Positions 2,772-21,529 of a DNA stretch of 34,471 nt are shown in pieces. Source of the stretch: Acidobacteriota bacterium (GTDB lineage: Bacteria; Acidobacteriota; Holophagae; Holophagales; Holophagaceae); assembly GCA_021812805.1 (NCBI GenBank), contig JAKAMQ010000010.1:1-34471 (forward strand), written 5' to 3'. A program made the translations under genes and the position numbers. Within the stretch, counting starts at the first letter, position 1. Every line of letters begins with the position of its first letter. The notes below the pieces were generated by a model. That model ran no database searches. It was given only the letters and a program-made list of their open reading frames with translations, and had not been told where the DNA came from.

Positions 2772-2832
2772 TTCATCGCGACCGATGACGGTGCGGCCTG
2801 ACATTCGACTCCTGTAGTTTGTCTAATTCCTG

Positions 2833-2839
2833 GTTAGGC
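2833..2839 (+). other. Integron-type recombination core GTTAGGC (left edge of cassette 1)
   Basis: G^TTAGGCGC here is exactly complementary to GCGCCTAAC at 3922-3930, as expected when cassette 1 carries the 3' edge of its own attC at its 5' end. Confidence 0.65.
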
Positions 2840-2863
2840 GCACTCATCATCAAGGAGGTCCCA

Positions 2864-3841
2864 GTGCATCGCGACAAGTCCTTCAGTCGGTCTTTAATTC
2901 TTATAGTCTGCGCTTGGTTCACACTTCCGCTAATGCCTCAAAGCAAGTGGAAGTTAACGCCACAAGCTATCGCCGAAAAGTCCAGCAAGTCTATCGTCCA
3001 GATCACCAGTAAAAATTCATCCGGAGATGCTTTGGGCTTTGGTACTGGTTTTTTTGTAGAACCGAACAAGGTTGTAACTAATTTCCATGTAATAGACGGT
3101 GCGAGCTTTGTAACAATCAAAGTCTTGAGTAGTGGAAAAGTTTATGAGGTGACAACGGTAGATGGGCACTCAATTGAAAACGATTTGGCGATTCTACTGG
3201 TCGATGGGTTCGAAAAACCTCTTTCTATCACCGATGTCCTGCCCAGGGTGGGGGACACTGTCTATGTGAACGGCAATCCCAAAGGGTTGACCGGCACCTT
3301 CTCCTCTGGAATTGTCAGTGCAATTAGAGGAGAAGCCGACACCACAAGGATCCAAATCACAGCTCCGATTTCACCTGGAAGTAGTGGCAGCCCCGTAATG
3401 AATTCCAGGGGCGAAGTAATTGGAGTTGCTTCTTCGGGAGTGGTAAATGGGCAAAATCTAAATTTCGCTATCCCTTTCACGGTTGGTATTCACACGACTT
3501 CCGTACCCCTCGCGGACTTACCAACATCGAAACTTCGGCCAGCGCCTCTTCAGTCCTCAAACCCTGTGTATGCCAGAGACTTCAAATTCAACAACCAAGG
3601 AATTCCGACTTCCTTCTCAATAGTCAACAATACCTACGACCGAATCATGATGGGTGGTTATAAGGTAGTTTGGTACGACAAGAAAATGAACCGGCTCGGC
3701 TCTGAATTCATGTCCTGGATTCAGACCATTGAACCCCGCTCCACCTGGGAATGGGGGCAGTTTCCTCGGTCGAAAGCTGAACCCCTTCGAGGGCGGGCCT
3801 ATTTCGCAATCGAAGATATCCTTTATAAGGCAATCAAGTAG
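2864..3841 (+). CDS. Secreted trypsin-like serine protease (HtrA/DegP-like S1 domain, no recognisable PDZ), cassette 1 cargo
   Basis: GTG start after AAGGAGG; signal-peptide-like N-terminus; triad signatures NFHVI, NDLAIL, GSSGSP. The ORF-track start at 2819 (TTG) lies upstream of the cassette boundary and is unlikely. Confidence 0.8.
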   Translation: MHRDKSFSRSLILIVCAWFTLPLMPQSKWKLTPQAIAEKSSKSIVQITSKNSSGDALGFGTGFFVEPNKVVTNFHVIDGASFVTIKVLSSGKVYEVTTVDGHSIENDLAILLVDGFEKPLSITDVLPRVGDTVYVNGNPKGLTGTFSSGIVSAIRGEADTTRIQITAPISPGSSGSPVMNSRGEVIGVASSGVVNGQNLNFAIPFTVGIHTTSVPLADLPTSKLRPAPLQSSNPVYARDFKFNNQGIPTSFSIVNNTYDRIMMGGYKVVWYDKKMNRLGSEFMSWIQTIEPRSTWEWGQFPRSKAEPLRGRAYFAIEDILYKAIK

Positions 3842-3923
3842 TCACTCGATTATTTGACGATGTATTCGGATTTAGGTATATAAAGAAGGTGCCAGAATGC
3901 AAAACCAAGCATGCTGTTGATGC

Positions 3924-4045
3924 GCCTAACACTCCGCTCAACTCGGACTCCGCCTGCATTGTCTTCCGCTCTCTCAACTTCTCGCTTCCTCGGCTCCGTT
4001 CAGCGCCTCGGTGCATCCGGGGTCGGTCAGATTCATTCGTTAGGT
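3924..4045 (+). other. attC-like site 1 (integron cassette recombination site, ~122 bp)
   Basis: Begins GCCTAAC (R'', RYYYAAC), ends GTTAGGT (R', GTTRRRY), with partially complementary inner arms (CTCGGACTCCGCCTGCATTG versus CGGTGCATCCGGGGTCGGTCAG); shares about 95 bp of similarity with attC-like site 2. Confidence 0.75.
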
Positions 4046-4120
4046 ATCAGGTTATCACGATCACAATACTCACTATCACCTTTAGTCATTTACCAAAATT
4101 TCTACGACAAGGGAATAGAG

Positions 4121-4858
4121 ATGGAAAATATTTTCAATTCTCTCAAGACAAAACTTTTGCAAGCAGGGCTCACTGAGGCTGAAAATCATTTCTCTCAAGC
4201 CAAATCAGCTATAGAACGCAGCGAATGGGAGGCAGCAAATAGTCAAGTACGAGCTACATTAGAATCATTATTTAATAGTGTTGCTGCCATCTGCCTTAAA
4301 ACCCAAAAAAGGGGAGGAGTGGCTCGTGAGGAACTGGAGAGAGCTGGGATACTAAGGTTTCGAGAAGCCAGGCTTATTCAAGAATTTATGGCGTATGCCG
4401 GTGGTTCTGGTTCACATGCCGGCACCTCATCAGAAGATGAGGCAATGGGACAATGGCTAATCGGGGCCGGCATTGCGAACCAAAGTCTAAGGTTCCTGCC
4501 GAGCTTGGTTAAAGTTGAAGATGCCTTAAAAGCCAATTTACCTCCAGGCTCCAACGACCGTACCGCATCGGATAATGAATTAAAAACAAAATGCCCAACC
4601 TGTGGAACAATGCAATTTCTTTCTGAAGCCACAATTTCAAAAAAAGGAAGTGAGACAATATATACCTGTATCAATGGTTGCCAAGCTATTGTAATCGGGG
4701 GCGATAAAGAAAATCATCTCAAAAGAGGTCGCGGTTATCAGTCAGAAAATTATTTTATAAGAAATGCTGAAGACTTGTTTTTTCCACCTAGTGGCAATGC
4801 AATCGCGATACTTCTTCCGAAATGTAAACATGCGCTTATGCCTTCCTTCAAATTCTAA
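4121..4858 (+). CDS. HEPN-like domain plus zinc-ribbon orphan protein (245 aa), cassette 2 cargo
   Basis: ATG 4121 with AAGGGA upstream; N-terminal helical region with EWEAANSQVRATLESLFNSVA and FMAYAGGSGSHAGTSSEDEA, then CPTCG...C-x3-C. The ORF-track start at 3911 runs through attC and is unlikely. Confidence 0.6.
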   Translation: MENIFNSLKTKLLQAGLTEAENHFSQAKSAIERSEWEAANSQVRATLESLFNSVAAICLKTQKRGGVAREELERAGILRFREARLIQEFMAYAGGSGSHAGTSSEDEAMGQWLIGAGIANQSLRFLPSLVKVEDALKANLPPGSNDRTASDNELKTKCPTCGTMQFLSEATISKKGSETIYTCINGCQAIVIGGDKENHLKRGRGYQSENYFIRNAEDLFFPPSGNAIAILLPKCKHALMPSFKF

Positions 4859-4896
4859 ATATTCGACTGAAGGCAATTCAATAAAAACTCGCACCT

Positions 4897-5005
4897 GCCT
4901 AACCCTGCGCTAAACTCGGACCCCGCCTGCATTGCCTTTCGTTCTCTCTCGGCATCTCGCTACCTCGGCTTCGCTCAGCGCCTCGATGTAGGTGGGGCCA
5001 TCCAG
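4897..5005 (+). other. attC-like site 2, apparently truncated at its 3' (R') end
   Basis: GCCTAACCCTGCGCTAAACTCGGACCCCGCCTGCATTGCC...CTCGGCTTCGCTCAGCGCCTCGATGTAGGTGGGGCC matches attC-like site 1, but no GTTRRRY follows; the sequence runs into T-rich DNA and the inverted repeat. Confidence 0.65.
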
Positions 5006-5016
5006 TTTTTCTTTTT

Positions 5017-5059
5017 TTATCGGTGTTCATCAGCTTTTATCTGTGTTCATCGGTGTTCC
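5017..5059. repeat. Right arm of the 43-bp inverted repeat flanking the low-GC island
   Basis: TTATCGGTGTTCATCAGCTTTTATCTGTGTTCATCGGTGTTCC, reverse complement of 2618-2661 with 3 mismatches. Confidence 0.85.
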
Positions 5060-5090
5060 GCTTTTAGCTTTTGCTTTTAGCTTTTAGTCC

Positions 5091-8009
5091 TCACCCCACC
5101 TCCAGCACCGCCAGTCCGTCCTGTCGTGTGCTGCGGCCGCGGACGGGGACGATGTCGCCGACGCGGTAGGGGCGCTGGCGGCGTTTGAGGACGGGGGGGA
5201 AGGCGACGGCTTCGGCGAGGCCGGTCTCGTCTTCGAAGGTGATGAACTGCATGCGCTCGCCTTGCTCGGTGGCCACGTCCTTGTCGGCCACCACCAGCGC
5301 CCAGAAGCGGAGGGCGCGCCCGGGCTTCGCAACGTCCGCCGCGCGGTCGGGGCCGCCACCCTTCCGCACGCGGGCGAGGGCGGCGGGGTGGAGTTCCAGG
5401 GTGAGGCCCATCGTCTCCAGTTCCAGGTCGGCGCGCTCGAAAAGATCGGTGGGCCTCGGGCGCACGCCGGCGGGCACGCCGCCCAGCCGCGCCCACATCA
5501 GGCGCGTGCGGTCGCCATCCGGGGCCCAGTGGTCGAAGGCCCCGGCGGCGCAGAGGGCCTCGGCGGTGGGCACGGAGAGGGCCGTGCGGCCCAGCAGGTC
5601 GTCCAGGTGCGCGAAGGGGCCGTGGCGCTCGCGTTCCTCCAGCAGCGCCTCCACCTCCGCCTGCCGGGCGCCCTTCACTTGCATGAGCCCCACGCGCAGG
5701 GCCTGCTCGCCCTCGGCGGTGAAGGGCCAGGCGGAGGCATTGGCATCGGGGCCCCGCACCACCAGCCGGTGGCGGCGGGCATCGCCCAGGTAGGCGATGG
5801 CGGGGTAGTAGCCGCCCTGGTTGGTGATGACGGAGGCGAAGAACACCGCCGGATGGTGGGCCTTCAGCCACGCGCTCTCGAAGCTCACCTGGGCGTAGCT
5901 GGCCGAGTGGGGCTTGCAGAAGGAGTAGCCCGTGAAGGTGCGGATCATGTCCCAGGCCTCGTCCACCGTGGCGGGCCGCACGCGGCGCTCGGCGCAGCCC
6001 CGGCGGAACCGCGCCTCGAAGAGGGGCAGCTTCGCCTCGCAGTCGGGCTTGCCCAGCAGCTTGCGGAGCTGGTCGGCGTCGTGGTGGCTCCAGCCCGCCA
6101 GGGCCACGCAGACCTTGATGACATCCTCCTGGTAGACCAGCACGCCGAAGCTGTCGGACAGCAGCTCGTTGAACACGGGATCGGAGGGCTCCCAGGCCTC
6201 CTCGCCCCGGCTGCGCTTCACGTAGCGGTCCACCCAGCGGTAGGCCGCCGGGCGGATGAGGCTGGAGTGGATCACCAGCGTCTCGAAGTCGCCCTTCTTC
6301 ACCCGCTGCTGGAGCTGGCGCGTGGCGGGGCTCTCCACGTAGAAGACGCCGATGCTGTCGCCGCGCGCCAGCAGATCCTGCGTGGCGGGATCCTCCCGCG
6401 AATGGGCGCCGGGATCGGCGGGCACGGCGTCGCCCAGGATCTCGTAGGCGTCGCGGATGACGGCCAGGCTGCGGTTCCCCAGCAGGTCAATCTTCACCAG
6501 GCCGTAGTTCTCCACGCCGTCCTTGTCCCAGGTGGTGGTGGACACGCCCTCCTTGGCGGGCGCGGGCTGGAAGGCTGCGTGTTCCCAGAAGGGGCCGGGC
6601 GTCACGACGGTGCCGCCGGGGTGCACGGAGAACTGGTGGAAGTGGCCCGTGAGCGCCGCGGCCTGGCGCAGGATCATGCCCCAGGCAGGGTTCTCCGCCG
6701 CGCGGTCCAGGCCACCTTCCCAGCCGCGCACGTACCGCGCCAGCTGCTTGAGCTCGCTGTCGGGCCGCCCGTGGGCCTGGGCCACGGCCCGCAGGGCGCC
6801 CTTGGGCTTGAAGAAGGCGTGGTTGGCCACCATGGCCACCCGATGGCGGCCGTAGCGCGCGAAGACCGACTGGATGACGGCGTCGCGCTCGTCCCAGGCG
6901 AAATCAATGTCCATGTCCGGCGGATCCCGGCGCTCCTTGGTGAGGAAGCGCTCGAACAGGAGGTTCGTGGCCACGGGATCCACGTTGCTGAGGCCCAGGG
7001 CGTAGCTCACCAGGGAGGCCGCGCCGCTGCCCCGTCCGCAGATGCGGGGTGTCGCGCCCTGGGCGGCCTGGACGATGTCCTGCACCAGCAGGAAGTAGCG
7101 GGCGAAGCCCTTGTAGGCGATGAGGTCCAGCTCCTGTTCCATGCGGGCCAGCACCGCGCCGTCCGCCTTCGGGAACCGCACTGCCACACCCGCCCGCACC
7201 CGCTCGCGCAGGAGGGCGTCCAGGTCCGCGCCCTCGCGGCCCAGGGGTTCGGGCAGCACCCAGCCGCCCCAGTGGAGGGACCAGCCGGCCACCTGCTCCA
7301 GCGCGGCGGCGGTGGCCTTCGCCACGGCGGGCTCGCCGAAGGGGAAGCGGGCCTCCCAGTCGGCGCGGGGCACGGCGGCGTCGGCCGGATCCCATAGGGC
7401 CTCGGTGCGGATCAGCGTGGCCTGCGCCGCGATGGCCCGCTTCAGCCGATGCATCTCCAGGCCCTCGGCCGTGCGGAAGCGCAGCACCTGGGGCGCCACC
7501 ACCGTCAAGCCCGTGGCCAGGGCTTTCCGGGCCTCCTGGGCCCGGCGGGGATGGCCCAGCAGGGCGCCCTGGAGGCCCTCCCGCAGGAGCGCGTCCAGGC
7601 CCGCGAGATCCTCCGCCAGCAGCACACAGCCTCCCGGTGGCTCGGGCTCCCCGAGGCCGGGGATCACGAGATCGGAGCGCGCCGCGTGGGCCTGGGCCGA
7701 CAGCAGGCGGTTTAGGGCCGCGTAGCCCGCATCGCTGACGGGCAGCGCACCGTAGCCGTGCCCGCGCCACGTGAACCGCGCCCCCAGGTGCAGGCGGAAG
7801 TCCGCCCAGTCCGGATCCGGCGGCAGGCCCTCCAGTTCCCGGGCCTGGTGGATCCACGCCAGCGCCTCCCGCAGCTTCGGGTAGCCCGCCACACCCTGGT
7901 CCCAGCAGACCAGGTCGCGGTAGCCCAGGGTGCGCGCCAGGCGCAGCAGCTGCTTCGCCGGGTAGACGCCTTCACCTGTGGAGAAATCGGAAATGCCGAG
8001 GGCGAACAT
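5091..8009 (-). CDS. dnaE2: Error-prone DNA polymerase III alpha subunit, DnaE2/ImuC-like, with degenerate PHP domain
   Basis: GRGSGAASLVSYALGLSNVDP, PPDMDIDFAWDERD, VKIDLLGNRSLAVI, SFCKPHSASYAQVSFESAWLKAHHP; lies 6 bp downstream of the imuB-like stop. Confidence 0.85.
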   Translation of the reverse strand: MFALGISDFSTGEGVYPAKQLLRLARTLGYRDLVCWDQGVAGYPKLREALAWIHQARELEGLPPDPDWADFRLHLGARFTWRGHGYGALPVSDAGYAALNRLLSAQAHAARSDLVIPGLGEPEPPGGCVLLAEDLAGLDALLREGLQGALLGHPRRAQEARKALATGLTVVAPQVLRFRTAEGLEMHRLKRAIAAQATLIRTEALWDPADAAVPRADWEARFPFGEPAVAKATAAALEQVAGWSLHWGGWVLPEPLGREGADLDALLRERVRAGVAVRFPKADGAVLARMEQELDLIAYKGFARYFLLVQDIVQAAQGATPRICGRGSGAASLVSYALGLSNVDPVATNLLFERFLTKERRDPPDMDIDFAWDERDAVIQSVFARYGRHRVAMVANHAFFKPKGALRAVAQAHGRPDSELKQLARYVRGWEGGLDRAAENPAWGMILRQAAALTGHFHQFSVHPGGTVVTPGPFWEHAAFQPAPAKEGVSTTTWDKDGVENYGLVKIDLLGNRSLAVIRDAYEILGDAVPADPGAHSREDPATQDLLARGDSIGVFYVESPATRQLQQRVKKGDFETLVIHSSLIRPAAYRWVDRYVKRSRGEEAWEPSDPVFNELLSDSFGVLVYQEDVIKVCVALAGWSHHDADQLRKLLGKPDCEAKLPLFEARFRRGCAERRVRPATVDEAWDMIRTFTGYSFCKPHSASYAQVSFESAWLKAHHPAVFFASVITNQGGYYPAIAYLGDARRHRLVVRGPDANASAWPFTAEGEQALRVGLMQVKGARQAEVEALLEERERHGPFAHLDDLLGRTALSVPTAEALCAAGAFDHWAPDGDRTRLMWARLGGVPAGVRPRPTDLFERADLELETMGLTLELHPAALARVRKGGGPDRAADVAKPGRALRFWALVVADKDVATEQGERMQFITFEDETGLAEAVAFPPVLKRRQRPYRVGDIVPVRGRSTRQDGLAVLEVG

Positions 8010-8015
8010 GGGGCA

Positions 8016-9137
8016 TCAAGCCCCCTTTCCCATCCATCCCGGCCGCACCGCCTGGTCGGGGAAGCGGCGACGGAGCCTCGCCAGGGCGGGTTCGAGGCGG
8101 TCGAGCTTGGCGTTCCGGGGATCCTCGAAGAGGCTCCGCTCGCGGCCCAGGCCCCAGGCCAAACGCAGCTCCACCTCGCGGACCAGCAGGCGCCGGGTGG
8201 CGAGGGCCAGGAAGGCCTGCTGGATGCGGCGGGCCAGCACCAGGGGCGGGGCCGCCAGATCCTCCGGCTCGGCGCGCCAGGCGTGGGGCTCGCCGTCCAC
8301 ATCCCACCAACGCAGCACCAACGTCCGGGGGTGGCGGGGATCGGACCAGAGCCAGTCGAGGCAGCGCACGGCCAGGGCCACCTCCTCCGGCAGGCGGGGG
8401 GGCTGGAGGCGCCAGCCGTGGCGGGCGTGGCCGGGACGCTCGGTGAGCAGGGGCAGGCGGGGCCGGTCCTCGCCCCGCACCCGGGCCCGCAGATCCGGCG
8501 CCAGCGTGGGGTTTGTCAGCTCCGCCAGCACGGGCAGGGGCACGGGCTGGAGGTCGCCGAAGGACCGCAGGCCCAGTCGGCGGAACCGCTCGTGCAGGCG
8601 CGGGGCCAGGTCGGGCAGGCGGCGCAGGGGCTCGGGCGCCAGGAAGGTGGCTTCGGCGCCCTCCACCACCCGCTCCAGCCGGTGTTCGGCATGGGCCGCG
8701 AACTGGGCGGCGGTGGCGCTGAGGGAGAGGCCGCCGTGGCTCTCCCAGCCGTGCCGTGCGGCCAGCTCCCGGCGGATGCGCTCAGCAGTATCCGGCAGGG
8801 GGCCGAAGAGCCGCTGGGTGCCCTGGAGCTCCACCAGGGCCTCGCCCAGGCGCAGGAGCTGGCCCTGGGGTGTCCAATGCTGAAGAAGGGTTCCCAGCTC
8901 CGCCTGGGCCTCCCACCAGACCTGGGGGGAGGGATCCAGCACCCCCAGCCCCGGTGCGGCGCGGAGGGCCTGGTCCATGGGCTGGCCCGGCGCCAGCCCC
9001 TCGGCCCGGCCCAGGCGGTTCACGAACCAGAGGGTGGGCGAGCGGGGACTCTCGGGGCTCAGGAAGGCCAGGGGCCGGCCCCGCAGGCTCCCATTCCGGC
9101 CGCAGGCCAGCTGGAACGGCAGTTCGGGAACCCACAT
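8016..9137 (-). CDS. imuB: ImuB-like Y-family polymerase homologue (mutasome component)
   Basis: MWVPELPFQLACGR..., ALVELQGTQRLFGPLP, LSATAAQFAAHAEH; canonical Y-family acidic motifs absent as in ImuB; coupled to the dnaE2-like gene. Confidence 0.75.
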   Translation of the reverse strand: MWVPELPFQLACGRNGSLRGRPLAFLSPESPRSPTLWFVNRLGRAEGLAPGQPMDQALRAAPGLGVLDPSPQVWWEAQAELGTLLQHWTPQGQLLRLGEALVELQGTQRLFGPLPDTAERIRRELAARHGWESHGGLSLSATAAQFAAHAEHRLERVVEGAEATFLAPEPLRRLPDLAPRLHERFRRLGLRSFGDLQPVPLPVLAELTNPTLAPDLRARVRGEDRPRLPLLTERPGHARHGWRLQPPRLPEEVALAVRCLDWLWSDPRHPRTLVLRWWDVDGEPHAWRAEPEDLAAPPLVLARRIQQAFLALATRRLLVREVELRLAWGLGRERSLFEDPRNAKLDRLEPALARLRRRFPDQAVRPGWMGKGA

Positions 9138-9232
9138 CGCCAGCACCGGAACCTCCAGGGGGGATCCAAGTATGGCGTAAAAAAAGCGAAAAACAATCTC
9201 GACCGGGACCATCTGCGGTTGAATGGCATCTC

Positions 9233-12019: not shown

Positions 12020-13177
12020 TCAAAGCCCGGGCACCGGCCTGCCGTCGGGCGGCTCCGACCAGCGAATCCCCAGCCAGCGCGCGATCGTAGGTGCGATGTC
12101 CCAGGCGGGGATGTCGCCGAGGGGGCCGCGTCCATCCCCCAGCACCACCAGCCAGGCGTGCATGGAAGGCGTTTCGGGGGCATAGGCGTGGGCGCCAGCC
12201 CGCCCGCGCCGCTCGGCGGCGGCCTCCGCCGGGGTGCGCGCCTGGGAGAGCCAGGTGCCCTCCGGGGCAAGCACCACCAGATCGCCCACGCGGGGGTTCC
12301 CGCCCAGGTGGTAGCGCGTGGGGACTTCCGCCCGGCGCCAGACGGTGAGGCCCGCGGCGCGCAGGCGTTCTGCGGCCGGGCCGGCCTCCGAAGGCTTTCG
12401 GAGGTAGATGTAGGCGCTTCCCCCATGGGCGATGCAGGTGGCGGGAAGACCGTGGAGCAGGTCTGGAATGGACAGACGATGTCGCATGGTGGCCATGCCA
12501 TGGTCCGCCGTGAGGATTACCCGCAGGCCCGGATGAACGGCCATCAGCCTGGCCAGCCAGGGGGCCATTTCGTCATCCAGATGCCTGAGCTTGGCCTTCA
12601 CCTCGGGGCTGCCGGGGCCGTGGAGATGGCCTTCCTCATCGGTGCCGGAAAGATAGGTCATCACCAGCTTCGCGCCATCGGCCAGGGCGGCATCGGAGAA
12701 GGCGAGGCCCTCGGCGTCGGGGTGCCCGGGGTGGAAGGTCTGCATGCGCCAGGCGGTGACCCCCTGCCAGGGGCCGGTGGCGCCGACCCAGTGGTACACC
12801 GCCGTGCGGATGCCGCTGCGGGTGGCGGCCACCCAGAGCGGTTCGCGCTCCAGGTCTTCCACCCGGGAGGCGGCCGGGACCAGGTGGTGGCCAGAGGGCT
12901 CGAGGTAGGCGTTGGCCACCACGCCGTGGTGCTCGGGCCAGCAGCCCGTGGCGAGGGTCACATGGCCGTTGAAGGTGGTGGCCGGGAAGGGGGGCAGCAG
13001 GGCCCCGCGGCGACCCGCCTCCGAAAGGGCCCACACCTTCGGCATGGTGTCGGGGCGGAACTGGTTGGCACCCAGGCCATCCTCGCTGATGATGAGCACC
13101 GGCGCGGATTCCGACGTGGGCGGCGCGGCGGGCGCGGGGAGCACGAGCAGCAAGGCGAGAAGAACGGCGGCGCGCAT
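12020..13177 (-). CDS. Secreted nucleotide pyrophosphatase/phosphodiesterase (alkaline phosphatase superfamily)
   Basis: Signal peptide MRAAVLLALLLVLPAPA; FPATTFNGHVTLATGCWPEHHGVVAN; TYLSGTDEEGHLHGP; ILTADHGM. Confidence 0.8.
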   Translation of the reverse strand: MRAAVLLALLLVLPAPAAPPTSESAPVLIISEDGLGANQFRPDTMPKVWALSEAGRRGALLPPFPATTFNGHVTLATGCWPEHHGVVANAYLEPSGHHLVPAASRVEDLEREPLWVAATRSGIRTAVYHWVGATGPWQGVTAWRMQTFHPGHPDAEGLAFSDAALADGAKLVMTYLSGTDEEGHLHGPGSPEVKAKLRHLDDEMAPWLARLMAVHPGLRVILTADHGMATMRHRLSIPDLLHGLPATCIAHGGSAYIYLRKPSEAGPAAERLRAAGLTVWRRAEVPTRYHLGGNPRVGDLVVLAPEGTWLSQARTPAEAAAERRGRAGAHAYAPETPSMHAWLVVLGDGRGPLGDIPAWDIAPTIARWLGIRWSEPPDGRPVPGL

Positions 13178-16317: not shown

Positions 16318-16890
16318 ATGATGAAACGCGCCCTCCTCCTGACGACCACGCTGCTCCATGCCCAGCCAGCTGCGCCCCCCCCGATGATTCCGGCCGCGAC
16401 GCCCGGCGCGCTGCCCTGTGATGCGCTGGATCACCAGCCGCTGCTGATCGGGCCCACCACACGCGAGGCCATCCTGGCGCACCGGGCGGTCTTCCGGGAG
16501 GCCACCGCCAAGACCCACCTGCCCGAAGCCCTGGTCGCCCGCTGGCAGGCCGTGAAACAGCCCCTGACCCTGGTGGCCGTCTTCGGTTCCTGGTGCAGCG
16601 ACAGCCAGCACCAGCTGCCGGAACTGCTCGCGTTGCAGGCGCATCCCAATCCGTTCATCGAGGTGCATTACCTGGGGGTCTACCGGGACAAGAAGGTGGA
16701 TCCTGCCGCCTGGCCCAAGGGGTGCGCCTCCCAGAACGTGGAGCGGGTGCCGACGTTCTATGTCTATGCCACGCAGCCCGGGGGCGGCCAGAAGCTGGTG
16801 GGCTCCATCGTGGAGAGGCCCCCCAAGCCCGGCCAGCGGATGTCCGAGGCCCTGGTGGATCTGGTGGAGCGGGGGGCCGTGGCTTTCTGA
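16318..16890 (+). CDS. Secreted thioredoxin-fold protein
   Basis: Signal peptide; LTLVAVFGSWCSDSQHQLPEL; VERVPTFYVY. Confidence 0.7.
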   Translation: MMKRALLLTTTLLHAQPAAPPPMIPAATPGALPCDALDHQPLLIGPTTREAILAHRAVFREATAKTHLPEALVARWQAVKQPLTLVAVFGSWCSDSQHQLPELLALQAHPNPFIEVHYLGVYRDKKVDPAAWPKGCASQNVERVPTFYVYATQPGGGQKLVGSIVERPPKPGQRMSEALVDLVERGAVAF

Positions 16891-20575: not shown

Positions 20576-21529
20576 TCATATTCCGCCGCCGCGCGGGTGC
20601 ATTCGGTCGTAGAGGGCGCGCAGGCGGGCCTGGTGGACATGGGTGTAGATCTGCGTGGTGCTGATGTCCGCATGGCCCAGCATGGCCTGGACGGCCCGCA
20701 GATCGGCTCCGTGGTCCAGCAGATGGGTGGCGAAGGCATGCCTGAGGACGTGCGGGCTCACCATGCTGGGCCGCAGGTCTGCCTTCCGCGCATAGCCTTT
20801 GAGGAGCCGCCAGAGATGCTGCCGGCTGAGGGGTTCGCCGCGCTGCCCCACGAACAGTTCGCCCCCCTTCGGCTTGAACCCAGATCGCACGGCCAGCCAC
20901 GCGCGGATCCAGTGTTCGGCGCTGGCGCCGAAGGGGATCAGGCGCTCCTTGCGGCCCTTGCCCATGACCTTCAGGAATCCCTCGTCCAGGAAGACGCCAA
21001 GCGCCGGAAGTCCCGCCAGTTCCGAGACGCGAAGGCCGGAGGCATAGAGCAGCTCCAGCCAGGCCCGGTCGCGGATGCCGAGGGGGGTGTTCGTGTCTGG
21101 CGCTCCCAGGAGGGCCTCCACTTGGGGTTCGCTCAGGGTCCGCGGGAGCATCCGCGGCGGACGGGGAGCCTTCACCACGGCTTCGGGGCCCGCGCCGTGG
21201 CCGCCCTCCATGCGCAGGAAGGTCAGGAACGACCGCACGCTGGAACTCATCCGTGCCAGGCTCCGCGGCGCCTTCCCCAGGGCCTGCTGGGCGACCAGGA
21301 ACCGCGAGAGGTGGTCGCGCGTCAGTTCGCCGGGAGCCAGATGCTCGGTGCTGCCCCAGGCTGCCAGATGGGCAAGATCGGACAGGTAGCCCTCTGTGGT
21401 GTGGGGTGAGAGCCCCCGCTCCACTGCCAGGAACGTCCGGAATTTCCGCAGACTGGCGGCCCAGCCCAGGGGCCATCCATGCTCAGGTTCTTCGGTCTGC
21501 TTGCGGCGGGGCATGTGCCATTCCCGCAT
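20576..21529 (-). CDS. xerD: Tyrosine recombinase XerD-like
   Basis: LLYASGLRVSELAGL, KGRKERLIPFG, SPHVLRHAFATHLLDHGADLRAVQAMLGHADISTTQIYTHV. Confidence 0.88.
   Translation of the reverse strand: MREWHMPRRKQTEEPEHGWPLGWAASLRKFRTFLAVERGLSPHTTEGYLSDLAHLAAWGSTEHLAPGELTRDHLSRFLVAQQALGKAPRSLARMSSSVRSFLTFLRMEGGHGAGPEAVVKAPRPPRMLPRTLSEPQVEALLGAPDTNTPLGIRDRAWLELLYASGLRVSELAGLPALGVFLDEGFLKVMGKGRKERLIPFGASAEHWIRAWLAVRSGFKPKGGELFVGQRGEPLSRQHLWRLLKGYARKADLRPSMVSPHVLRHAFATHLLDHGADLRAVQAMLGHADISTTQIYTHVHQARLRALYDRMHPRGGGI

Follow-up and report, generated by a model that had tools for sequence, protein, structure and literature searches.

The standard description of an integron places its one attI site beside the integrase gene intI. 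Arrays of attC sites without such a neighbour, the CALINs, are common, and they are usually traced back to insertion off target, to a lost intI or to rearrangement (PMC8618304). IntegronFinder 2.0 calls a CALIN from at least two attC sites, and its authors warn that draft assemblies can yield false ones (PMC9024848). Integrons are known in Acidobacteriota (PMC8618304) and attC sites of Acidobacteria have already been modelled (PMC8352920); our literature search found nothing relevant on integrons of Geothrix or Holophaga, or on multiple or orphan attI sites. Arrays lacking intI occupy fixed chromosomal loci away from the integrase in Xanthomonas, according to the sections of PMC12444791 considered here, and cassettes can also enter a chromosome outside the integron and in trans at attG sites, as far as the accounts of Loot et al. 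2024 given in PMC12901181 and PMC11023631 extend.

The window analysed here, a stretch of 34,471 nucleotides, is contig C77 of a 2.9-Mb bin (genome G000; 242 contigs, 88 % complete) belonging to Geothrix (Holophagaceae), a soil and sediment bacterium. Positions 2833–5005 hold two cassette-type units with attC-type sites of Geothrix (Table 1). A preliminary description, made from the letters alone, had already pointed out that each unit carries one plus-strand ORF ending just before its attC and that the base composition of the island departs from its surroundings. We measured distances of 82 bp in unit 1 and 38 bp in unit 2, and the 2.2-kb island has a GC content of ~0.44–0.49 as compared to ~0.70 in the chromosome around it. 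The island is flanked by a conserved minus-strand gene (1609–2514) and by a gene for an error-prone DnaE-type polymerase (5091–8009), the latter assignment having been checked by profile. The polymerase gene is followed on the minus strand by a gene that looks like one of the ImuB type (8016–9212), and the pair possibly represents an SOS mutasome.

Compared with a CALIN as called by IntegronFinder 2.0, the island agrees in having two attC-related sites with one ORF each, no adjacent intI and a content that varies between relatives, but one of its attC sites is truncated and it starts at an attI-type site instead of an unspecified edge. With the sedentary chromosomal integron of Geothrix, whose arrays in congeners often stand beside a full-length IntI, it shares the attC family and the cassette structure, yet it is remote from intI, short and equipped with decayed sites. 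The Xanthomonas arrays are alike in lacking intI at fixed loci; no attI-type heads are reported for them in the considered sections of PMC12444791, whereas the Geothrix heads match attI and the array content turns over between species. Insertion at attG likewise brings cassettes into the chromosome outside the integron and in trans, but attG is divergent from classical att sites in the available account (PMC12901181), whereas the attI sequence recurs in the Geothrix sites.

Table 1. Features of the cassette island and its borders; positions refer to the window
Feature	Position	Strand	Remarks
Possible remnant of upstream attI element, GCGGCCTGA	2793–2801	+	Genus form YTAGGCGAAC; weak; same letters in a similar place at the orphan site of contig C173
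attI-type head site, TGTCTAATTCCTG followed by GTTAGGC	2820–2839	+	Core GTTAGGC at 2833–2839; one mismatch to the genus pattern CGYCYAAKWYNNNGTTAGR
Cassette 1	2834–4039	+	From the cleavage point G/TTAGGC up to the G in the R' box of attC1; edge–R'' complementarity, attC model match
Cassette 1 gene, trypsin-like (HtrA-type) serine protease	2864–3841	+	325 aa; Pfam Trypsin_2 PF13365, E 1.4e-25
attC1	3924–4045	+	R'' GCCTAAC 3924–3930, R' GTTAGGT 4039–4045; covariance model R1 104.2 bits, E 2.7e-25
Cassette 2, 3' end lost	4040–5005	+	attC2 without L' and R'
Cassette 2 gene, 245-aa protein	4121–4858	+	CxxC...CxxxC zinc-ribbon-like motif; no family
attC2, truncated	4897–5005	+	R'' GCCTAAC 4897–4903, no R'; covariance model 85 bits, E 3.3e-20
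Right flank common to G019	5014–5090	.	Carries the dispersed intergenic repeat GATGAACACMGATRAA, inverted relative to 2617–2669

A covariance model built from 46 Geothrix attC copies, with the window's own copies excluded, matched both sites (104 and 85 bits) over the spans 3924–4044 and 4897–5023. The hairpin of this model is supported by covariation, with 84 double-change cells against 26 after shuffling and loss of the signal once the partner is slid. In the consensus derived from 214 full copies, GCCTAACCCTCCGCTCAACTCGGACCCCGCCTGCA...TGCAGGCGGGGCCGGTTAGCTTCATTCGTTAGGC, the bottom strand can be read as three stems, R, L and a central one, with a single extrahelical base in the L stem. Most full-length copies reach about 119–147 bits in the same search and retain 21–22 of the 22 pairs, and both window sites are weaker. 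The outer boxes that had been noted for attC1 as RYYYAAC and GTTRRRY read GCCTAAC and GTTAGGT, and 18 of the 22 consensus pairs are kept, L' being degenerate (GGTCAGA for GGTTAGC). The folding of its single bottom strand, however, from which R and L stems with extrahelical bases are expected, is not better than that of shuffled sequences (z = +0.6, as compared to −2.6 for an intact genus copy). The likeness of the second block, starting at 4897, to the first also held up, with 87 % identity over 52 nt and 75 % over 65 nt, but it stops near 5005 and a GTTRRRY end is missing; in nhmmer, the site covers model positions 1–109 of 123 and it departs from the consensus after GGGGCC. Both window attCs are thus decayed: part of the internal stem is gone from attC1, and L' as well as R' from attC2. 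Owing to this truncation, cassette 2 has no complete attC and is no longer a complete excisable cassette. One additional weak model match at 12531–12640 was taken as chance (E 0.16).

In the window's genome, BLAST located the repeat seven times, with both window copies counted. Among 60 relatives searched, the repeat was restricted to the window's own genus, and matches of the attC core pattern in GTDB genomes came almost only from Geothrix and from other Holophagaceae or Acidobacteria bins. An Rfam scan of the window and a plasmid search gave no match.

The complementarity between GTTAGGCGC at 2833–2841 and GCGCCTAAC at 3922–3930, from which a cassette had been proposed in the first place, is exact and even extends to 10 nt. 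It follows a rule of the genus: across 207 consecutive Geothrix cassettes, the 5' edge matches the complement of the cassette's own R'' far above shuffled partners, with z = 15, 18 and 11 for variable positions one to three after the core, and 10-nt matches are reached by 22 % of the cassettes with their own R'' as opposed to 2.4 % with a random partner. Unit 1 of the window obeys this rule over the full 10 nt, and unit 2 does not beyond the core, merely the 6 common core bases being complementary to its own R''. An origin of these features in chance resemblance or in a dispersed repeat unrelated to integrons could be suspected from the outer flanks, where inverted copies of a dispersed intergenic repeat are located, but it is excluded for practical purposes by attC E-values of 1e-25 and 1e-20, by the covariation, by the edge rule and by the arrays standing beside IntI in congeners. 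The flank repeats themselves, 53 bp long and 89 % identical, bound the island at 2617–2669 and 5007–5059; we considered them as transposon ends and rejected this, as GATGAACACMGATRAA is found dispersed in intergenic positions and lies also beside the orthologous polymerase gene of G001, where there is no array.

The cassette 1 gene begins with a GTG start codon preceded by a ribosome-binding site (AAGGAGGT, 2852–2859), and the closest congener relative of its protease is located between two attC sites of an array in G002. The protease domain also matches the PADLOC RT-Protease model and related defence models (E 6e-19), which may reflect merely the common protease fold. For the cassette 2 protein, no Pfam, NCBIfam or PADLOC family scored above cut-off and no relative was found in the other genus genomes searched, with three weak relatives detected in 396 genomes of the phylum; its structure, predicted without an alignment, had a mean pLDDT of 40 and was too poor to use.

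The congener G019 has the same locus. Upstream, the two genomes share ~91 % identity up to GTTAGGC (window position 2839), which is exactly where their alignment stops. From this core onwards G019 carries three units unrelated to those of the window, encoding a 230-aa protein, a Sel1-repeat protein and an AbiU2 HEPN protein, the last attC of the array being likewise truncated. On the right, homology resumes at window position 5014 with 92 % identity over 987 bp, and the right boundary of the window array does not lie at a core site. A vertically conserved gene order without gain or loss of cassettes, named beforehand as the outcome that would speak against capture, is not what this locus displays. 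As the homology breaks at the core and the cassettes behind it differ, cassette content has been exchanged at that core without a local intI. An empty version of the window locus, from which the order of events could be read, was not found. The AbiU2 gene of G019 encodes an abortive-infection-type HEPN protein (L244, 1403–2146, minus strand; PF18734, E 4e-24).

No integron integrase is encoded in the window, as had been noted before. The only tyrosine recombinase in it (20576–21529) is Xer-like. It scores 332 bits with a general tyrosine-recombinase model, 315 with that of XerD, whose cut-off is 329.6, and 98 with that of the integron integrases, whose cut-off is 265. Both sides of the array consist of conserved chromosomal genes. 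The reading of the island as an intI-less array of two gene cassettes, a CALIN, is supported by the attC covariance model, the genus-wide relation between edge and R'' and the replacement of its content exactly at the core in G019. Three points of the preliminary description have to be amended: the attC sites are decayed and the second one truncated, the left boundary is attI-like, and the wording "without an integrase" is valid no further than the window and the bin as assembled, genome-wide absence being unproven. In the bin, all tyrosine recombinases are Xer-like or of other types and score below the integron-integrase cut-off. This absence of IntI proves little, because the bin is incomplete and fragmented, several of its contigs, C22 and C226 among them, break off inside or close to arrays, and most congeners encode IntI: a protein above the cut-off is present in 32 of the 47 genus genomes, among them G019 and G065, the relatives sharing the left flank of the window array. 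G000, G019 and G065 all lack the conserved neighbour that intI has in G032, and the place where intI would be expected in G000 could therefore not be located. The same fragmentation, together with the warning of the IntegronFinder authors about draft assemblies (PMC9024848), might suggest that the living cell holds a complete integron at this very locus. We consider this very improbable, since a single contig closes the locus with conserved chromosomal genes on both sides and the G019 contig does likewise, with no intI in either; for the window locus these contiguous flanks refute it. The window's cell may well have an intI elsewhere, not at the window array. On contig C22 (L084, 1890–4456), the array ends beside what appear, from reading the sequence, to be genes for a transposase and for an integrase of the phage type.

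Beside IntI, the attI of the genus reads CGTCCAATTCAAAGTTAGG, with a second element, YTAGGCGAAC, ~35–45 bp upstream. The intI-adjacent attI sites of G019 and G065 are CGTCTAATACTTAGTTAGA and CGTCTAATTCTTAGTTAGG, respectively, and the head of the window array is TGTCTAATTCCTGGTTAGG, identical to the G065 site at 16 of 19 positions. In a position matrix, the window edge scores above all 204 attC ends and inside the leave-one-out range of true attI sites, near its low end, and 0.14 % of all window positions score as high. The homologous head in G019 has two mismatches to the genus pattern and is thus worse than that of the window. The best reading is that the left edge is more than a cassette edge and, by its resemblance to the genus attI, would be a decayed platform site of the attI type. 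Capture at such a site fits better than a bare attC cluster, because an attI-like left boundary is common to many intI-less arrays of the genus.

This became apparent from a search of 47 genus genomes with the 19-bp pattern CGYCYAAKWYNNNGTTAGR, which returned 53 matches compared to 2 for the reversed pattern used as control. Fourteen of the 53 sites adjoin intI, all at one orthologous locus. The other 39 show no IntI match within 1.5 kb upstream, although for one of them merely ~0.4 kb upstream was examined, and 34 of these have an attC within 3.5 kb downstream and thus head a cassette array; four of the remaining five are cut by a contig end. Three positions left unspecified in the pattern, and hence not demanded by the search, are A in 32–36 of the 39 intI-less sites. 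About half of the genus genomes gave no exact match, including some with IntI whose attI differs slightly, and the site counts are therefore minimum values and the feature cannot be generalised to all species. Two further intI-less attI-type sites are found in the window's genome, on contigs C173 and C231; that on C173 (L319, contig position 16574; TTAGGCGGCCTGA...CGTCCAATTCCAAGTTAGA) heads a lone cassette. In G032, assembled as a single contig, one IntI is accompanied by three attI-type sites and three array regions, and G002, in two contigs, combines one IntI with four sites and four array regions.

Where a locus is common to at least two species, the upstream sides are mostly 80–95 % identical and the downstream sides yield mostly attC-length matches or nothing. 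In some of these cases the homology is lost already a few hundred bp short of the site, and not all of them are therefore the same insertion point. At one locus (G006 C9, G018 C13, G026 C6), the attI-type sites keep the C-rich spacer of the true attI, which looks like duplication, and at others only the two elements are common. At a locus other than that of the window, three species have sites with flanks of 94–95 % identity, entirely different cassettes and no intI nearby.

These data bear on two ordinary explanations of the window array. A complete integron may once have stood here and lost its intI by deletion, leaving attI and cassettes behind. An attI-like head would be the expected leftover, the decay of attC and attI fits a lost activity, and intI loss is frequent in Xanthomonas in the considered sections of PMC12444791. 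We nevertheless regard this as possible rather than probable: no remnant of intI was found near the site in the window's genome, the cassettes of G000 and G019 are wholly different with no local intI in either, so that exchange continued without intI or two independent losses took place, and many independent losses would be needed to explain exchange at loci such as the one with nearly identical flanks in three species. Alternatively, IntI may have captured the cassettes off target at a non-classical attG site resembling attI by chance, with no platform involved. Such insertion is established (Loot et al. 2024, via PMC12901181), is invoked for E. coli in the considered part of PMC12444791 and would work in trans too. 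It appears unlikely here, given that attG sites diverge strongly from the classical ones according to the account available (PMC12901181), whereas the Geothrix heads keep a 19-bp attI-like core, often with YTAGGCGAAC upstream, and outnumber the control matches by 53 to 2. At any single locus, local intI loss or attG insertion is possible.

We therefore favour, as the simplest and likely account, that the window array is a CALIN at a fixed Geothrix locus and belongs, in decayed form, to a group of attI platforms scattered over the chromosome and served by one IntI in trans. This IntI, its gene lying in another part of the genome, would in the past have joined circular cassettes at G/TTAGGC, new cassettes entering the array on its left. 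What speaks against this account is the loose match of the window's head to attI, the still poorer one of its G019 homologue, the lack of an empty version of the locus and a right boundary away from any core site. The later loss of part of the internal stem of attC1 and of L' and R' of attC2 would have left cassette 2 fixed and cassette 1 probably recombining poorly. For the window locus, we infer action in trans from the relatives, no IntI having been found in its incomplete genome. The broader proposal, which we hold with little more than even confidence, is that Geothrix possesses a distributed integron in which one IntI would serve several attI platforms apart from one another, each with an array of its own behind it and often located at loci conserved between species, with the window as a decaying example.

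Should this be true, the CALINs of Geothrix would be working remote platforms and neither wreckage nor off-target insertions, one integron would load new genes at several places in the chromosome simultaneously, and for many CALINs the origin could be tested from the first base pairs. The heads became visible because the genus attI can be read beside IntI in many genomes, and attI-type heads of intI-less arrays may have been missed elsewhere. Geothrix is well suited as a test case, its best-assembled genomes having three to four of these sites with conserved flanks around them. A separate variation of the attC family was seen in G020, which has two IntI genes and in which a shorter attC variant of ~107 bp dominates two arrays (L088 and L089).
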